Positions 11,651 through 20,823 of a stretch of 45,912 bases of DNA are shown here, one piece after another. Every line of letters starts with the position of its first letter. Position 1 is the stretch's first letter. Source of the DNA: Candidatus Thorarchaeota archaeon (GTDB lineage Archaea; Asgardarchaeota; Thorarchaeia; Thorarchaeales; Thorarchaeaceae); contig JAGXKG010000012.1 of assembly GCA_018335335.1 (NCBI GenBank), forward strand, positions 1 to 45,912, read 5' to 3'. The translations under genes were made by a program, and so were the position numbers. The notes beneath the pieces were generated by a model. That model saw nothing but the letters and a program-made list of their open reading frames with translations, did no database searches and was not told the DNA's origin.

Positions 11651-11698
11651 ACCTCAAAGATATCTGAGTAGCCGTTACATCATAGTGAGGGTCATGTA

Positions 11699-13216
11699 AT
11701 GGATTCGTACAGTCAACTCATGCAGATATATCGAGAGAACGTAATGCTCATGTCGATAGGAAAGGTTCTTTCTTGGGATAGGTATACCGTATTACCACCG
11801 GCGGCAGAATCTCGGCGTGGGGAGCAACAGGCACTTCTTGCTCAATTAATGCATAGAAAACTCAACAGCAGGAAGGTAGGAAGCCTCTTGGATGAGCTGG
11901 AGAGTAGTGACATCTATGAGTCGCTGACCCCTGTTCAGAAACGAAACGTATACCTGATACGGATCGAACATGAGAAGAAGACGAAGGTGCCAGATGATCT
12001 TGTAGGACGTTTAGTAAAACAGAGGGCTATTGCAAACAGGGCCCGAGAGAAAGCTCTTGCAAGCGAAGACTGGTCGCTTTTCGAACCCGAGTTTGTGAAG
12101 CTCTTTTCTATTCATTGCGAGCTAGCTGAGCATGTCGTTGAAATCCTAGATACTGACAACCTATATGATGTGAGTATAGAGAAATTTGATCACGGAATGA
12201 GGACAACTCACATATCGAGTGCATTTGATGAACTCAGGTCTAGTCTTCCCCAAATGATAAGAGAATACAGTGCGATGTGTGTAGGAAACCGGAAAGACTT
12301 CCTGAGCAGACCTGTGGAACAGAGAGACCAAATTCGGATTGTGAAAAAGCTTGCATCCTTCATCGGGTACGATTTGAGTTCAGATGAGGCCTACGGAAGG
12401 ATAGGCGAAGGAATCCACCCTGTGACAATTGGAGTCTATAATGACGTACGAATACTCCTCAACTACAAAGAAGACAACCTCTTTCGCTCATGTATTAGTT
12501 TCCTTCACGAAGCTGGCCATTCGCTTTACAATCGGAATATCAATGAAGAGTGGTGGTATTTACCAGTAGGTAGCAAGTGCAGCGTAACTGTAAGTGAAGC
12601 TCAGGCAAGATTCACTGAAAACCTGATAGGTCGCTCTCCAGAATTCATGGAATACTATCTACCGTTAGTAAATGATGTGACCCATGGTGTTTTCGAAGAT
12701 GTTACTCCTTCAGAATTCGCCCGGGCTGTGAACCAGGTTAAGCCGGAGCCGATAAGGGTAATTAGCGACGAGATATCCTACAATATGCATATTATCATCC
12801 GGTTTGAGATTGAACGTGGCCTCTTTGATGGAGAGATTGAAGCTTCCGAAATCCCCCAGGTTTGGAGTGAGCTATTTGAGGAGTATCTCGGAATAGAAGT
12901 TGACAATGATGCTATCGGTCCACTCCAAGATATTCATTGGGGATTGGGAATGTTTGGCTACTTCCCTACGTATGCTCTTGGAAATCTTGTTGCTGCGCAG
13001 CTTGCAGAAGCAATGACAGATGACATCCCCAATTGGAGAGATGAAATAAGAGAAGGGGAGGCATCAGCAGTGATGAATTGGATGGATCGTAACGTCCACA
13101 AGAAGGGCTGTCTCTATGATACACCTGAACTGCTTCAGCAGGTTACAGGAACGGAATTATCTTCAGATTCTTACATCAATTACATCGATAGCAAATTCTC
13201 AGAGCTATACAAATGA
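11699..13216 (+). CDS. M32 family metallocarboxypeptidase
   Basis: A 505-residue protein matching the thermostable carboxypeptidase 1 (M32) family in length and motifs. The N-terminal QLMQIYRENVMLMSIGKVLSWDRYT resembles the family's helical cap. IHPVTIGVYNDVRILLNYKEDN precedes the zinc site. The site itself is FLHEAGHSLY (His270, Glu271, His274), with a third ligand in VSEAQARFTEN (Glu300). M32 enzymes remove C-terminal residues from peptides in the cytoplasm. The ATG has GAGG 8 nt upstream, and a TATA box lies at 11643. No signal peptide is present. Confidence 0.92.
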   Translation: MDSYSQLMQIYRENVMLMSIGKVLSWDRYTVLPPAAESRRGEQQALLAQLMHRKLNSRKVGSLLDELESSDIYESLTPVQKRNVYLIRIEHEKKTKVPDDLVGRLVKQRAIANRAREKALASEDWSLFEPEFVKLFSIHCELAEHVVEILDTDNLYDVSIEKFDHGMRTTHISSAFDELRSSLPQMIREYSAMCVGNRKDFLSRPVEQRDQIRIVKKLASFIGYDLSSDEAYGRIGEGIHPVTIGVYNDVRILLNYKEDNLFRSCISFLHEAGHSLYNRNINEEWWYLPVGSKCSVTVSEAQARFTENLIGRSPEFMEYYLPLVNDVTHGVFEDVTPSEFARAVNQVKPEPIRVISDEISYNMHIIIRFEIERGLFDGEIEASEIPQVWSELFEEYLGIEVDNDAIGPLQDIHWGLGMFGYFPTYALGNLVAAQLAEAMTDDIPNWRDEIREGEASAVMNWMDRNVHKKGCLYDTPELLQQVTGTELSSDSYINYIDSKFSELYK

Positions 13217-13287: not shown

Positions 13288-14254
13288 ATGATGGACGATA
13301 CCACAAAGACGATACCTCTAGAGTGATGCAAATTTAACAGAATCCTAAGAAAAATAGAGCGTGAAAGTGTAAAATTGTTGTAAGATTTCCTGCAAGTGCT
13401 ACAGTGACCGAGGGCAGTAGGAGTTTATTAGGCCTAGTACGAGACCGGAGTCTGGTAGGACTAGGCAAGCGGGCTAGTGATTCGTCATGATGCACGCGGC
13501 CGAAAGCTGTGAGGAAGACTCCTTCTTCTAAGCAGAAGTCCTCACTCTCCTAACAGGTGATCTCATCAGGTCCCGGAGAGTCCGCGGCTGTTCACCATGT
13601 CCGTAATGGGCCATCTCTGCGGTGGTGACAAAGCTGGGGTGGGTGATCATGACCACGCCGTGGTAAGAACTGTGGAAAAGCTTACTGTCGCCGGGAGTGA
13701 TGACCCGGCATGACGACAGGAGACAGAAACCAGGACCGCGGGAGGAATCCTATTCCTGTGAACGTGGACAAAGCCCCTGCTGACTCACGGGCCTTCGGGT
13801 ACCGTGGGGGCGGCGACGCTGGCACGGGACGGGTGGAACACAGAAGTTTCATGCAGTTGGGTTCGCTCACTCAACTGTAAGAAACGGGTTATATGGGCAC
13901 AGAATAGCCGAAAGAGTAGAGAAAGGGTTACCAGATTTAACTGAGCTGGATCTATTCGAGGAAAAAGGTAAAACGAAAAACGGCAAAACATTTGTTCGAG
14001 GTTGTACACTTAGCAAGGTGTTCAAACAACAAGATGCTCTAGATGTAGGGCATATGTATTGCTATGTTGATGCAGCCAAGAGCATGGCACTCAATCCCGA
14101 GGAGAAAATGATTCACACATCCTGTGCGGCGTGCGGCGACGAAGTTTGTATCTTTAATGTTGTTCCTACGACAGAGGATGATCGGAAAAAATTCGCTAGC
14201 AGAGATAGGTCGTGGCAGACCGTAGATCCCAGACTCCTAGAATACAAGAAGTGA
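13288..14254 (+). pseudogene. Interrupted V4R/ATC-hydrolase-like gene
   Basis: Two pieces of one gene flank a non-coding insert. The 5' piece (13288-13323) has GAGG, a 9-nt spacer and an ATG, and encodes MMDDTTKTIPLE before a TGA. This matches the start of the intact paralogue at 20299 (MSEEERNIPIE). Homology resumes at about 13883 in an open frame with NGLYGHRIAERVEKGLPDL and runs to TGA 14254. It includes the cysteine motif RGCTLSKVF, MYCYVDAAKSMALNP and the CAACGDEVC cluster, all shared with the paralogue. About 40 codons (paralogue residues 12-51) are missing, replaced by roughly 560 nt including a GC-rich structured segment. A GTG at 14018 could start a 78-aa remnant. I infer insertion of a structured element followed by a deletion. 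The alternative is splicing of an intron together with a shortened product, which the missing core helix makes unlikely. Confidence 0.7.
13400..13877 (+). ncRNA. Structured RNA-like element, possible group II intron 5' part
   Basis: The segment is clearly more GC-rich than its surroundings, has no sustained reading frame on the plus strand and is packed with consecutive hairpins. Examples are 13432-13438 with 13460-13466 (inner stem 13442-13453); 13495-13511 around a CGAAA loop; 13509-13515 with 13539-13545 (inner stem 13522-13538); 13556-13560 with 13592-13596; 13686-13718 with a perfect GCCGGG/CCCGGC stem; 13743-13757; 13786-13806 with a TTCG loop; and 13854-13877 with a 9-bp stem. It splits a protein gene. 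The style fits domains I-III of a group II intron whose ORF and 3' domains were lost. I find no domain V, which would be decisive. It could also be another mobile or novel structured RNA. Both boundaries are approximate. Confidence 0.5.
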
Positions 14255-14335
14255 AAACAGAGTCAGCAAGTGGGCTAATCAGACGAGAGAAAACCTTTGT
14301 ACAACCGTGCTAGCTTCAATGATTGATGGTTTGAG

Positions 14336-16894
14336 TCAATCCCCTTCACCTGTTGACTCCAATTCGTTCTTCCTCTGTTTAGCTAGGGTATTTTTCTCTG
14401 CAGCCAATGCAGTTTGAACAAGAACAGGCACTAGTATAAAATGCAATACTATAAAGACTGGGTGGAATCCTAACAGTGTGATTTCACTGGTATGAAAGAG
14501 AATAGGAGACAAGAATGCTACAGACAGAAGCAAGACCATACCTGCTATTCTAAGTAAGGTAACTGAATGAATGCTACCCGGATGAGCTATATCCTCTGCG
14601 TCTGCAAGCAGGTGAGTGAAAGCTGCTATATACAATCCAATAATGCTGATGTAAATTGCTACTGCAAGAGACAAAAAGCTCCAGCCATAAAAATGCGAAA
14701 TTAGGAATATTCCTTCCTGCAAGATTCTCACGAATTGGCGAACATCAGCAAAGAGAACGGCGATACATGTTATTGACATGATTAGACTGATTCCAGCGGA
14801 GGCTCTTCCTCGGATTCCAAGCCATCCAAACTTATCACTAGCTGGCTTCATTGCTAATCGAAACATAAAGAAGAGGGATGTTAGTATCACCGTCGGAAGA
14901 AAAACATAGAGCACTGGTACCCAAAATAGGGTATGCTGATAGGCCCGAAACTCGGAGCCACTTCGAAGAAGTATTGGGGCCAAGATCCAAGTGACTGATA
15001 CTAACGCGCCCGTATACGCAGTCAACCTCCCTATGGACTTCAGCCAGCTTACAGCCAACTCTCTTCTATCAGCTGGTTCTTGAGTACTTGGTGCTTCCTC
15101 GGAGGGAGCAGAATATGCCCTTCCAGTAGTTACCAATCTAATCAGCACGAATACGCCGTAAATGTCCAGATAGACTGCCAATCCGAGGGATAAGCCGTAC
15201 AGTGGTGCTATGGGTCCGTAATACCACCATGCTGGAACCAGCGAAATCAGCGCAAGTACCAGATTTCCCATCATAAGGGTGGCTATGTCAACAAGGCCAA
15301 ACTTGCGATAGTTGAAGTGGGATTCTTTTCGTCTGTCGAAAAGCTTGTTCAATCTGTAGAGTAATAGTGTCAGAAACGGAGCTAGTAGAAAGAAATAGTT
15401 CCAGAATGCTACGACTGCGAACATGAACGAACCTACGTAGAACGCACATCCAAAAGTAAGAACAATATCAATGTTGTACAGCATTGTATTCTGTGACTGA
15501 TCCAGGTTTTTCGATAGCGTTACGAGGCGTTTGAAGAGTGAATGTTCTTGTTCAATCTCTCCTTCTGCAGCTCTCTCTTCGTCATCCCCAGAAACTTCCT
15601 GAGGTATTTGAGAAAATACAATACTCAACGCTGGAAGAAACTGAAACATGACCAGGACTAAAATCGATGGATACACAGGAACCACCACGACCAATGCTGC
15701 AATACCAATCACGAACCACAGAAGAGTTAGAACAAATGCCTTCGCAACCACCTCGCCTGGGGAATATGTAATCTCTTCTCTATGTTCAGATGGTTCTGGC
15801 TGCTTCATCGTCCTCTCTATTTCAACCTCTTCAGGCCGTTCTGAAACCTCTCGTGGGTATTCCTCGTCACCAGGTCTCTCTTCTTGTATTAGTTCAGTTT
15901 CAGTAGCGATTTCCGCCGGGCTAGCTTCCTCTTTGGCATACTCTTCCCAGTAGGTCTGTTGAGCAGATATGATATTGAAAACCAGGAACGCTCCATACCA
16001 TAGGAGGATAACCGCTCCCGGAACAGTTGACATCCGCCAAGGACGTTGGCTGAACTCAACTCCAAGAAGCATGTTGAAGAAGAATAGCAGAACGAAGTCT
16101 ACCAGCACTTGACGTTTGGCAAAGGTAATCGACCGTTGATCTTCTCCTTTTTCGAATAGAAGATATAGTCTAAGAATAACAAGAAGCACAAGGGCCATGA
16201 GCCACAACGAAGGAATGAAATAGAACTTCCAGAGGAAAATGAAGTAAGCTGCAGTGATACTAGCTGAAATGGTTGCAAGAAGATCAAGACCAAAGAGAAT
16301 CTCAGATCTCTTTGGAAATAGATTCACTGGCATGATAAAGACCCTTATTGACATGGGCCATTCTTCAGTATCTGGTTCGCTTAAGTGGACATCTCGATAG
16401 TTTTGAGTCAGTAAAAAGCCCATGAAACAACAGAGCCCGATGGCGGCTTCGAAGCCGAAAACGAACACGATCCAGGTTCCCGCTCCTATAGCAGCAAGCA
16501 AGGAGAAGAGCGGGAAGAGATATAGGGATTTGACAAACGCATCCAGATAAAGAGTGGTTTGGTCCTTTGGTCCTATCTCCTCAGGGATGCCACGCATTCG
16601 ACCCTCTTCTGGCATTTTGTCCCGTTCTACCAATTCCGATTCTGGATGGATGTCATCAACTCTCTCAGGATGCATGGATAAGATATACTCTTCAGCTACC
16701 TCCGATGGAGCACCGAATCTTGCTACTGTTTGTTTGGCCGCTTGTTCCGTAATCGTTCCATTTCCCCGCTCCATTGCTGAGTCTATGATATAATGCTCTA
16801 GTTCAGTGATAACCTCATCAGCTATATCTACCGGCAGATATCGTCTGACAAGGGTTAGGTATGTTTCGATGACTCTCTCACCCTCTTCACTCAT
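14336..16894 (-). CDS. Large multi-helix membrane protein with HAAS-like N-terminal domain
   Basis: From the ATG at 16894 the product has 852 residues. The first 70 form a soluble helical domain (TYLTLVRRYLPVDIADEVIT, then TITEQAAKQTVARFGAPSEVAEEYI). This matches the HAAS/DUF1700-type domain found beside PadR regulators in bacteria. Roughly 18 transmembrane helices follow, in two or three related blocks: LLVILRLYLLFEKGEDQ..FAKRQVLVDF and LTLLLYRLNKLFDRRKE..YRKFGLVDI occupy equivalent places, separated by an acidic loop of about 70 residues. The ATG overlaps the PadR stop as ATGA, so the pair is translationally coupled. An in-frame ATG at 16948 lies inside the PadR gene and is less likely. Its function is unknown, possibly a membrane stress sensor or transporter controlled by the PadR protein. 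Confidence 0.7.
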   Translation of the reverse strand: MSEEGERVIETYLTLVRRYLPVDIADEVITELEHYIIDSAMERGNGTITEQAAKQTVARFGAPSEVAEEYILSMHPERVDDIHPESELVERDKMPEEGRMRGIPEEIGPKDQTTLYLDAFVKSLYLFPLFSLLAAIGAGTWIVFVFGFEAAIGLCCFMGFLLTQNYRDVHLSEPDTEEWPMSIRVFIMPVNLFPKRSEILFGLDLLATISASITAAYFIFLWKFYFIPSLWLMALVLLVILRLYLLFEKGEDQRSITFAKRQVLVDFVLLFFFNMLLGVEFSQRPWRMSTVPGAVILLWYGAFLVFNIISAQQTYWEEYAKEEASPAEIATETELIQEERPGDEEYPREVSERPEEVEIERTMKQPEPSEHREEITYSPGEVVAKAFVLTLLWFVIGIAALVVVVPVYPSILVLVMFQFLPALSIVFSQIPQEVSGDDEERAAEGEIEQEHSLFKRLVTLSKNLDQSQNTMLYNIDIVLTFGCAFYVGSFMFAVVAFWNYFFLLAPFLTLLLYRLNKLFDRRKESHFNYRKFGLVDIATLMMGNLVLALISLVPAWWYYGPIAPLYGLSLGLAVYLDIYGVFVLIRLVTTGRAYSAPSEEAPSTQEPADRRELAVSWLKSIGRLTAYTGALVSVTWILAPILLRSGSEFRAYQHTLFWVPVLYVFLPTVILTSLFFMFRLAMKPASDKFGWLGIRGRASAGISLIMSITCIAVLFADVRQFVRILQEGIFLISHFYGWSFLSLAVAIYISIIGLYIAAFTHLLADAEDIAHPGSIHSVTLLRIAGMVLLLSVAFLSPILFHTSEITLLGFHPVFIVLHFILVPVLVQTALAAEKNTLAKQRKNELESTGEGD

Positions 16895-17265
16895 AGTAGG
16901 TTTGCCTCCTTCATGAGTGCCACCAGCTGACCGTTCAAATCTCGCCATGATCGGACCATCCTATTCAGAATTCTCTTGCCTTCTTTTGTGACGTAGTAGA
17001 GCCGGCGACGGCGCCCTCCTTCGTTGACCCAGTTCCCCTCCAGCATTCCTCTTTTTTCCAGCCTTCTAAGCAGGGGATATGTTGTTGACGGTTCTATCTG
17101 AAGAGCACTGTAGTTGTCCTCTAACTTCTTCATGATGTTGTAGCCATATGATTCTCCCATCGAAATAACTGCTAGAATAGCTAGTGAAATAGCTCCTCTG
17201 CGTATTTCATGGGACCATCGCTCGAATTCAAGTTCGGGATTGCCCCCGTCTTTGTCTTTTACCAA
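16891..17265 (-). CDS. PadR-family transcriptional regulator
   Basis: The 124-residue product has the winged-helix PadR core: AISLAILAVISMGESYGYNIMKKLE, IEPSTTYPLLRRLEKRGMLEG and RRRRLYYVTKEGKRILNRM, followed by the C-terminal dimerisation helix. The frame is open to an ATG at 17433, but that extra part runs through operator-like palindromes and has no family resemblance. A TTG at 17265 has GGAG 9 nt upstream; a GTG at 17271 is the alternative. It overlaps the large membrane protein gene by 4 nt. Upstream palindromes at 17282-17334 suggest it represses its own operon in response to an unknown ligand. Confidence 0.85.
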   Translation of the reverse strand: MVKDKDGGNPELEFERWSHEIRRGAISLAILAVISMGESYGYNIMKKLEDNYSALQIEPSTTYPLLRRLEKRGMLEGNWVNEGGRRRRLYYVTKEGKRILNRMVRSWRDLNGQLVALMKEANLL

Positions 17266-17281
17266 CCGCACCGGCTCCGGA

Positions 17282-17334
17282 GATATACTGGCAGTATATC
17301 GTGCTACGATATATATCGTGCCACATAGTATATC
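17282..17334 (-). promoter_or_regulatory. Palindromic operators and promoter of the PadR operon
   Basis: Directly upstream of the PadR start lie a perfect 8-3-8 inverted repeat, GATATACTGGCAGTATATC (17282-17300), a perfect 14-bp palindrome, ACGATATATATCGT (17306-17319), and a further half site AGTATATC (17327-17334). All share the GATATA/TATATC half, and the central site doubles as a TATA box. The arrangement fits PadR dimers blocking TBP access. PadR binding is inferred. Confidence 0.65.
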
Positions 17335-17516
17335 AACTTTTCGTGCAACATGAATTGGAGTTTTATCTTTTGGAGCTGAGTAAGAACTGTTCCACCATCT
17401 CAAGCGGAGGCATACGAACAGGTGCCCCTTCAATAATATGTAATCAATACATTGTGTATGTGGACTTCAAAATGTCAAAATTACTTGGCAGGTAGATGGT
17501 GATAGAGACAACTACC

Positions 17517-20298: not shown

Positions 20299-20823
20299 GT
20301 GAGCGAAGAAGAAAGGAATATCCCAATTGAGGAAGCAATAGAGGCCACGCGAGGCGCCCTCTCTAGAGTTGCCCTGTTACATATCGCTTTTTCGAAGGTT
20401 CTAGTGGAGGAATTCGGAGAAGAAGAGGGCCGTGATTTAGTTGCAAAAGCAATTAATGAATATGGTGAAAGAATAGCACACAGGCTCCAGAAGGGTTTGC
20501 CTGATTTGACACCGCTTGGTCTCTATGATGAAACAGGTGAAACAGACGAAGGAAGACCGTTTGCTAGAGGCTGCACGCTAGCCAAGGTATTCGAAGAAGA
20601 AGATGCGATAGATGTAGGTTATTTGTATTGCTATGTTGACGCCGCCAAGATGATGGCGATGGATCCTGATGCGAAGATGATATACACTTCGTGTGAAGCA
20701 TGTGGCGATGAATCATGCACAATGGATATAGTCCCCACAACCGAAAAGGAACAAGAATCCTTTGCGAGTAGGATAGGCTCATGGCGTAGTGTAGACCCAA
20801 GACTGTTTGAATTCAAAGGCTAG
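20299..20823 (+). CDS. V4R / ATC-hydrolase-like protein (intact paralogue)
   Basis: A 174-residue protein starting at a GTG. An N-terminal helical region (ATRGALSRVALLHIAFSKVL) is followed by RGCTLAKVFEEEDAIDVGY, LYCYVDAAKMMAMDPDAKM and SCEACGDESCTMDIVP. The conserved Cys, the YC..D motif and the C..CGD..C ending fit the L-2-amino-thiazoline-4-carboxylate hydrolase-like and V4R superfamily, whose members bind small molecules or catalyse hydrolysis. The cysteines could bind a metal. No substrate can be named. The broken gene at 13288-14254 is a close paralogue. A TATA-like stretch (attGTATAATTC) occurs about 30 nt upstream. No strong Shine-Dalgarno is present. Confidence 0.65.
   Translation: MSEEERNIPIEEAIEATRGALSRVALLHIAFSKVLVEEFGEEEGRDLVAKAINEYGERIAHRLQKGLPDLTPLGLYDETGETDEGRPFARGCTLAKVFEEEDAIDVGYLYCYVDAAKMMAMDPDAKMIYTSCEACGDESCTMDIVPTTEKEQESFASRIGSWRSVDPRLFEFKG

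Follow-up and report, generated by a model that had tools for sequence, protein, structure and literature searches.

The window analysed here, a 45,912-nucleotide stretch of DNA, is part of a 2.94-Mb metagenome-assembled genome of Candidatus Thorarchaeota (Asgard archaea) that is 97% complete. Downstream of an M32 carboxypeptidase gene it carries an ATC_hydrolase/V4R-like gene (13291-14254) that is split by an insert of 569 bp (13323-13891; Table 1). The 5' remnant starts with an ATG at 13291 and its last base, 13322, falls inside codon 11 (GA/G). The host sequence that is missing amounts to 130 nt: codons 12-54 (43 codons) and the last base of codon 11. An intact paralogue lies further downstream; the PF14196 (ATC_hydrolase) profile scores it at 33.7 bits, above the curated cut-off of 28.1, and gives the 3' remnant alone 26.7 bits.

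A sequence-only reading of this DNA had described a mobile insertion disrupting one of two paralogues, with host codons lost beside it, and had proposed searching for an uninterrupted gene in a relative. Both claims are borne out, since the insert is multicopy and a same-genus genome serving as our sister comparison (G001) holds an uninterrupted orthologue of 174 aa that has codons 12-54 and lacks the insert. This orthologue follows the M32 peptidase gene in the same order and is 94% identical at the nucleotide level from 13892 on. The insert, put at about 560 nt, proved real and its extent could be made exact. Coding homology had been placed from about 13883; the alignment of the 174-aa paralogue to the region, which had also been proposed, gave 62% identity over 119 aa by tblastn and moves this start to Tyr55 at 13892, so that the loss of residues 12-51 becomes the slightly larger one given above. 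The match of promoter, Shine-Dalgarno sequence and first 11 codons to the paralogue is weak by itself, with only 3/11 residues identical (MDDTTKTIPLE against VSEEERNIPIE; 4/11 against MNEHRKMIPIA of the sister orthologue). The 5' remnant is instead supported by synteny, because the M32 peptidase gene precedes the gene in the sister genome too.

Table 1. Features of the split gene, its insert and its neighbours, in window coordinates
Feature	Position	Strand	Evidence
M32 carboxypeptidase gene, left neighbour here and in the sister genome	11699..13216	+	Pfam PF02074, E 1e-141
5' remnant of the ATC_hydrolase/V4R-like gene (codon 1 to mid-codon 11)	13291..13322	+	synteny and weak identity to the intact orthologue
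TCTAGA target site, left copy, without a matching right copy	13317..13322	.	alignment with other copies; copy L130 of G001 has TCTAGA on both sides
Non-autonomous ("ghost") transposon copy, 569 bp	13323..13891	+	about 28 copies in its own genome, ends aligned
Left end with TTTAAC/TTTTAC-type terminal motif	13323..13432	+	kept at the 5' ends of copies; in full-length element L197 located past the giant gene
Relic of the tnpB 3' end (about residues 461-556), not open here	13458..13763	+	nucleotide alignment; tblastn of TnpB on other ghost copies
Structured RNA (omegaRNA-like) core	13507..13843	+	base-pair covariation
Terminal right-end hairpin, long subtype	13846..13885	+	GTTTC...GAAAC inverted repeat
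Right terminus GGGTTA	13886..13891	+	common to most copies
3' remnant of the same gene, Tyr55 to stop, frame open	13892..14254	+	62% aa identity to the paralogue, 94% nt identity to the sister orthologue
Intact paralogue, 174 aa	20299..20823	+	PF14196, E 8e-8

Ghost copies, target duplications and an omegaRNA-like fold

The insert is one of about 28 related copies, partial or complete, that are dispersed in its own genome with identities of 72-89% (best E among the others 5e-176). Related elements were found in 25 of the 59 genomes examined, all 25 in the same family. Complete copies are mostly 550-570 bp long, the exceptions being one of 206 bp and one of 1.68 kb with part of tnpB. They retain the left end, the tnpB 3' end/omegaRNA region and the right end and have lost the parent genes; a 488-aa TnpB query in tblastn matched other ghost copies at residues 380-488, several of them with stops. 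As in elements called ghosts, MITEs or PATEs, the copies are gene-less, keep both ends, are multicopy and have gene-bearing relatives. Their terminal inverted repeats are imperfect (TTxTTACA motif), and no transposase lies beside the right-end-only fragments (L026, L028-L030). The 206-bp copy (L027, 1307-1512), a minimal one with both ends and with the RNA region mostly lost, is situated downstream of a tRNA-like sequence, and the matching site in G001 (L192) is empty.

Host DNA flanking the copies on both sides usually repeats TCNNGA. The middle two bases agree between left and right in 12/15 copies of this genus, compared with 3.9 expected by permutation (0/20000 permutations), and this agreement includes TCTTGA/TCTTGA, TCTAGA/TCTAGA and TCAGGA/TCAGGA pairs, so the repeats are not one fixed sequence of the element. 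Three insertion sites are empty in G001, each with a single target copy, and two copies in another genus carry 8-bp repeats, AAGCGAAC and ATCTGGGG; the ghosts of genome G006 yielded no convincing duplications. The flanking repeats are target-site duplications. We had also entertained the flanks as IS605 cleavage sites (C_L/C_R), a candidate dropped in view of the paired changes.

At their 3' side the copies have 440 nt that match the final ~100 codons of tnpB together with the right end, and in short copies the frame is usually no longer intact. An alignment of 31 copies, drawn from four genomes, supports 80 base pairs, of which 38 show two-sided compensatory change. Pairing holds in 95.4% of cells and drops to 38-45% if the partners are shifted by 1-3 columns; the covariation score is 0.349 versus 0.202 in shuffles. 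The RNA fold is constrained, and its position and behaviour are those of an omegaRNA, although a guide function would be assigned by analogy with TnpB biology.

A strong RNA structure sitting within a reading frame could also be expected of a self-splicing intron of group I or II. The Rfam search, both at gathering level and at E 10, returned only chance matches (mir-196, hammerhead II) and no intron model. The same-genus genome has the uninterrupted gene with all its codons, including those absent here, and no insert, and the target-site duplications together with the interruption of the gene point to insertion rather than splicing. An intron is therefore extremely improbable, and we conclude that the insert is a non-autonomous copy of a TnpB/omegaRNA transposon.

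Loss of the 43 codons and reciprocal loss of the paralogues

TCTAGA precedes the window copy, no repeat follows it, and its right end abuts codon 55 directly; mismatched flanks also occur in two other copies (L015, L125). The sequence-only reading had the 3' end of the element deleted. We find no support for this, the right end being intact to the terminal GGGTTA as in most copies; what is absent at the right junction is host sequence and the right copy of the target duplication, not element sequence. Since the junction lies exactly at the end of the element, it calls for either recombination between two copies or a deletion primed from that end.

Two features of the locus bear on this choice. 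The window copy is chimeric: its left half is nearest to one subtype and its last 50 nt are of the long right-end subtype, matching long-type copies at 43-47/50 positions and short-type copies at 31-36/50. Flank identity to G001 also differs, at 68.6% on the left, in the M32 gene (window 11698-13149), and 94% on the right. At the protein level the M32 locus pair is 65.7% identical, and the other M32 orthologue pair reaches 89.5% nucleotide identity; such excess divergence of the syntenic pair suggests an allele replacement in one lineage at the M32 gene. Because the element is chimeric and its left flank anomalously divergent, we favour recombination between two copies as the route by which the codons may have been lost. 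One copy would have inserted at TCTAGA in codon 11 and a second near codon 54, recombination between them then removing the 43 codons and leaving the gene split in a cell that keeps the paralogue at 20299.

A deletion starting exactly at the right end is the less likely course, though still a possible one. Here integrase or repair would have removed 136 nt (the right TCTAGA copy plus 130 nt of gene) after a single insertion at TCTAGA, so that one insertion suffices, and a right end intact to its last base beside a displaced host flank fits well. Such a deletion accounts, however, neither for the chimerism of the copy nor for the rise in flank identity from its left side to its right, unless each arose by coincidence, as it may have. 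The earlier order of events, insertion and then deletion, is accordingly one of two live options, with the chimerism and the jump in divergence favouring recombination.

The genome being a metagenome assembly, some weight is also due to a misjoin through the repeat, in which two strains had the insertion at different codons and their reads were fused into an allele that exists in no cell. Several contigs do break inside the repeat, and the left and right flanks are unequal in divergence. Both flanks nevertheless come from a single gene, with order and orientation as expected, and copies only 72-89% identical are mostly resolvable, which makes a misjoin unlikely.

Compared with G001, the 3' remnant has dN 0.036 and dS 0.179 and still looks constrained; the disruption is therefore probably recent relative to the species split. 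In the sister genome it is the other paralogue that is lost, since a 270-bp deletion truncates the counterpart of the 20299 gene after residue 83 (G001:C4, L084/L085). Thus the first paralogue is disrupted in the window's genome and the second truncated in G001, with one intact copy in each. Separately, window positions 14324-17427, holding an 870-aa gene and a 180-aa gene with a weak HAAS-like match, are missing at this place in G001, with 94% identity on both sides.

Gene-bearing relatives and a giant protein with a predicted Cas1-like domain

With a TnpB alignment as query we found 64 TnpB loci; a single TnpB sequence as query gave none. Full-length relatives of the ghost encode a TnpB of ~560 aa whose nearest solved relatives are TnpB and Cas12f. 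The Cas12f1-like_TNB profile matches above its cut-off, and NF040570, at 91.8 bits, falls just under its cut-off of 100. An omegaRNA-like region with covariation overlaps the 3' end of tnpB. The RuvC residues D242 and D436 are each conserved in 61/61 sequences, and the RuvC-I motif reads DLG, not DPG. The canonical Glu position holds Gly in 64/64, and a glutamate, E403, is present in 62/62, seven residues before the first zinc-finger Cys (ExxxxxxCxxC). An alternative Glu (Ealt) has been defined for Fanzors and a minority of TnpBs (PMC10711439), and judged by the alignment E403 is the Fanzor-like Ealt site. We considered a catalytically dead TnpB, with Gly at the canonical Glu, and rejected it because the alternative Glu is invariant. 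The tnpB gene of the window's own genome (L083, 3036-4703), like the 64 loci, is of the Ealt type with the invariant Gly. One of the 64, L252 (WJMJ01000149.1), is labelled Lokiarchaeota, which reflects either a bin with the wrong label or transfer beyond Thorarchaeota.

About half of the 64 loci carry a giant gene of ~1,400-1,900 codons, divergent from tnpB and directly upstream of it. The best full-length case, L197 in G001, spans ~7.65 kb and consists of a left end, a giant gene (1734 aa), a tnpB with one internal TGA, and a right end. It is flanked by matching TCTGGA repeats and is the sole full-length element with clear duplications verified, an automatic search at other full-length loci having given mostly chance-level matches. 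Ghost left ends of G006 have their match in L256 at the side of the giant gene away from tnpB and, more weakly, in L221 of another genome. From the layout of L197 and the match of ghost left ends beyond the gene in L256, it follows that the giant gene lies inside the element. In the window's genome we found one giant gene only (L083, 4945-7185); it encodes the single Cas1-like giant protein of that genome and runs off the contig end.

Beside tnpB at L197, L246, L256, L272 and other loci, the giant genes encode Cas1-like, PD-(D/E)xK and RecA-like parts. Comparison of the protein with Pfam, NCBIfam, PADLOC and PDB sequences matched no relevant family, and no sequence profile identifies it as Cas1. 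An AlphaFold2 model of 930 residues (pLDDT 79.5) matches RAD51/DnaB-type ATPases and also Cas1, and would place the RecA-like fold after about residue 560. When the first 306 residues are isolated (mean pLDDT 84.6), the first 13 PDB hits are all Cas1, from several systems, with a Foldseek probability that reaches 1.00, although E is only 0.0036 and TM about 0.36-0.40. Residues E77, N114, G121, R125, H165, D172, D175 and R178 are invariant in 34/34 giant proteins and follow the motif order of Thorarchaeota Cas1 (IEG, NALxSFG, H, LDLxEEFR); the catalytic residues of the M. mazei casposase are E162/H232/E247 (PMC6977970). Alignment to Thorarchaeota Cas1 with hhalign paired the same motifs at an E of only 0.05, a score equalled in 3/60 column shuffles. 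The region that follows shows, in the alignment, a PD-(D/E)xK pattern with QxxxY.

Neither a BFVD fold search nor a scan of viral contigs with the Cas1-like domain gave a match, and ordinary Cas1 was not found in the host genome. A polymerase domain is absent from 22 giant proteins, and L197 holds only the giant gene and tnpB. The Cas1-like giant protein occurs in 19/49 genomes, which all belong to the same family; G006 alone has 20 matches. By fold and motif, and not by sequence-profile significance, we regard its N-terminal domain with moderate confidence as a Cas1-like integrase.

Mobilization and relation to known transposons

TnpB and an omegaRNA are typical features of IS200/IS605 and IS607 elements, and a TnpA can act in trans, so the ghosts might be PATEs moved by a Y1 or serine TnpA missing from the assembly. 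The Y1 transposase (PF01797) is absent from the window's genome, G001, G006 (despite its 36 TnpB matches) and nearly all genomes of the family, whereas control genomes were positive; the serine recombinase (PF00239) is absent from the window's genome. Target duplications, moreover, are not expected for Y1 elements. We consider this origin improbable, and the predicted action of the giant protein in trans is most likely what moves full-length and ghost copies alike.

On this proposal the giant protein, with its Cas1-like fold, PD-(D/E)xK motif and RecA-like fold, would be the integrase. TnpB (D242, E403, D436) would be an RNA-guided nuclease using omegaRNAs, those of ghosts included, and the guide of a ghost omegaRNA would be the host DNA just beyond its right end. 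The likeness to Cas1 could instead be convergent, the giant protein having a nuclease or ATPase role while another enzyme moves the element, as the weak profile score and modest TM would allow. Yet the leading fold hits are all Cas1, the catalytic residues are invariant and in Cas1 order, and the gene sits between the ends of the element and accompanies TnpB; we rate this rival as a minority view, of fairly low probability. Taken as a whole, it is quite probable that the window holds a ghost copy of a Thorarchaeota transposon family with TnpB and a giant integrase, and that the codons were lost by recombination or, failing that, adjacent deletion.

Like casposons, these elements live in archaea, have a predicted integrase of Cas1 fold with an associated Cas4/RecB-like nuclease motif, carry ends that resemble inverted repeats and are flanked by target duplications. 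They differ in that the integrase domain of the parent elements is missed by Cas1 profiles and is part of a protein of ~1,400-1,900 residues; the parents carry tnpB/omegaRNA, no PolB was found in them and no preference for tRNA ends was seen, and the duplications here are about 6-8 bp, compared with 14-15 bp for casposons (PMC6977970). IS200/IS605 and IS607 elements and their PATE/MITE derivatives share TnpB, an omegaRNA overlapping the tnpB 3' end and gene-less two-ended derivatives, but the parents described here lack a Y1 or serine TnpA, have target duplications and encode a TnpB with the alternative Glu. Fanzor elements of Spizellomyces, which have "ghost" copies (PMC10432273), are alike in the alternative RuvC Glu and in many ghosts with ends and omegaRNA and no protein gene, and unlike in that our parents are archaeal, have DLG rather than DPG in RuvC-I and carry a giant partner gene. 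The aloposons of Heimdallarchaeia are likewise Asgard transposons with giant proteins, but those proteins measure 3,000-6,000 aa, integration is at tRNA sites, there are four other conserved genes, and the paper makes no mention of TnpB (PMC8813620). We had weighed the parents as aloposons and judged them different on protein size, tRNA-site integration and gene content.

For each of these kinds (casposons, IS605/IS607-PATEs, Fanzor ghosts and aloposons), at least one defining feature is absent from the parent elements or uncertain in them. We lean towards regarding them as a new transposon class, so far almost only in Thorarchaeota, that would combine a Cas1-like integrase with a Fanzor-like TnpB/omegaRNA and whose ghosts may supply guide RNAs in trans. 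In the open-access literature we found no paper that connects transposons of Thorarchaeota with casposons or with Cas1. The prevailing view derives CRISPR-Cas from mobile elements of two separate kinds, casposons for the Cas1 integrase and TnpB transposons for the type V effectors. Casposons and TnpB have been treated as separate sources of CRISPR (PMC6452270).

At the locus itself, each of the two sister species has lost a different one of the two paralogues, in one case through this element, and the locus thereby illustrates clearly, on a small scale, how a ghost transposon can cost its host a gene. If our interpretation of the parents is true, one mobile element carries a relative of the enzyme of CRISPR adaptation together with a relative of the type V effector, which would show that a Cas1-like integrase and TnpB/omegaRNA can be combined on one element. 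Cooperation of RNA-guided cutting with Cas1-type integration would then become testable, and the arrangement would point to a way in which TnpB elements spread through genomes of Thorarchaeota that have no TnpA.
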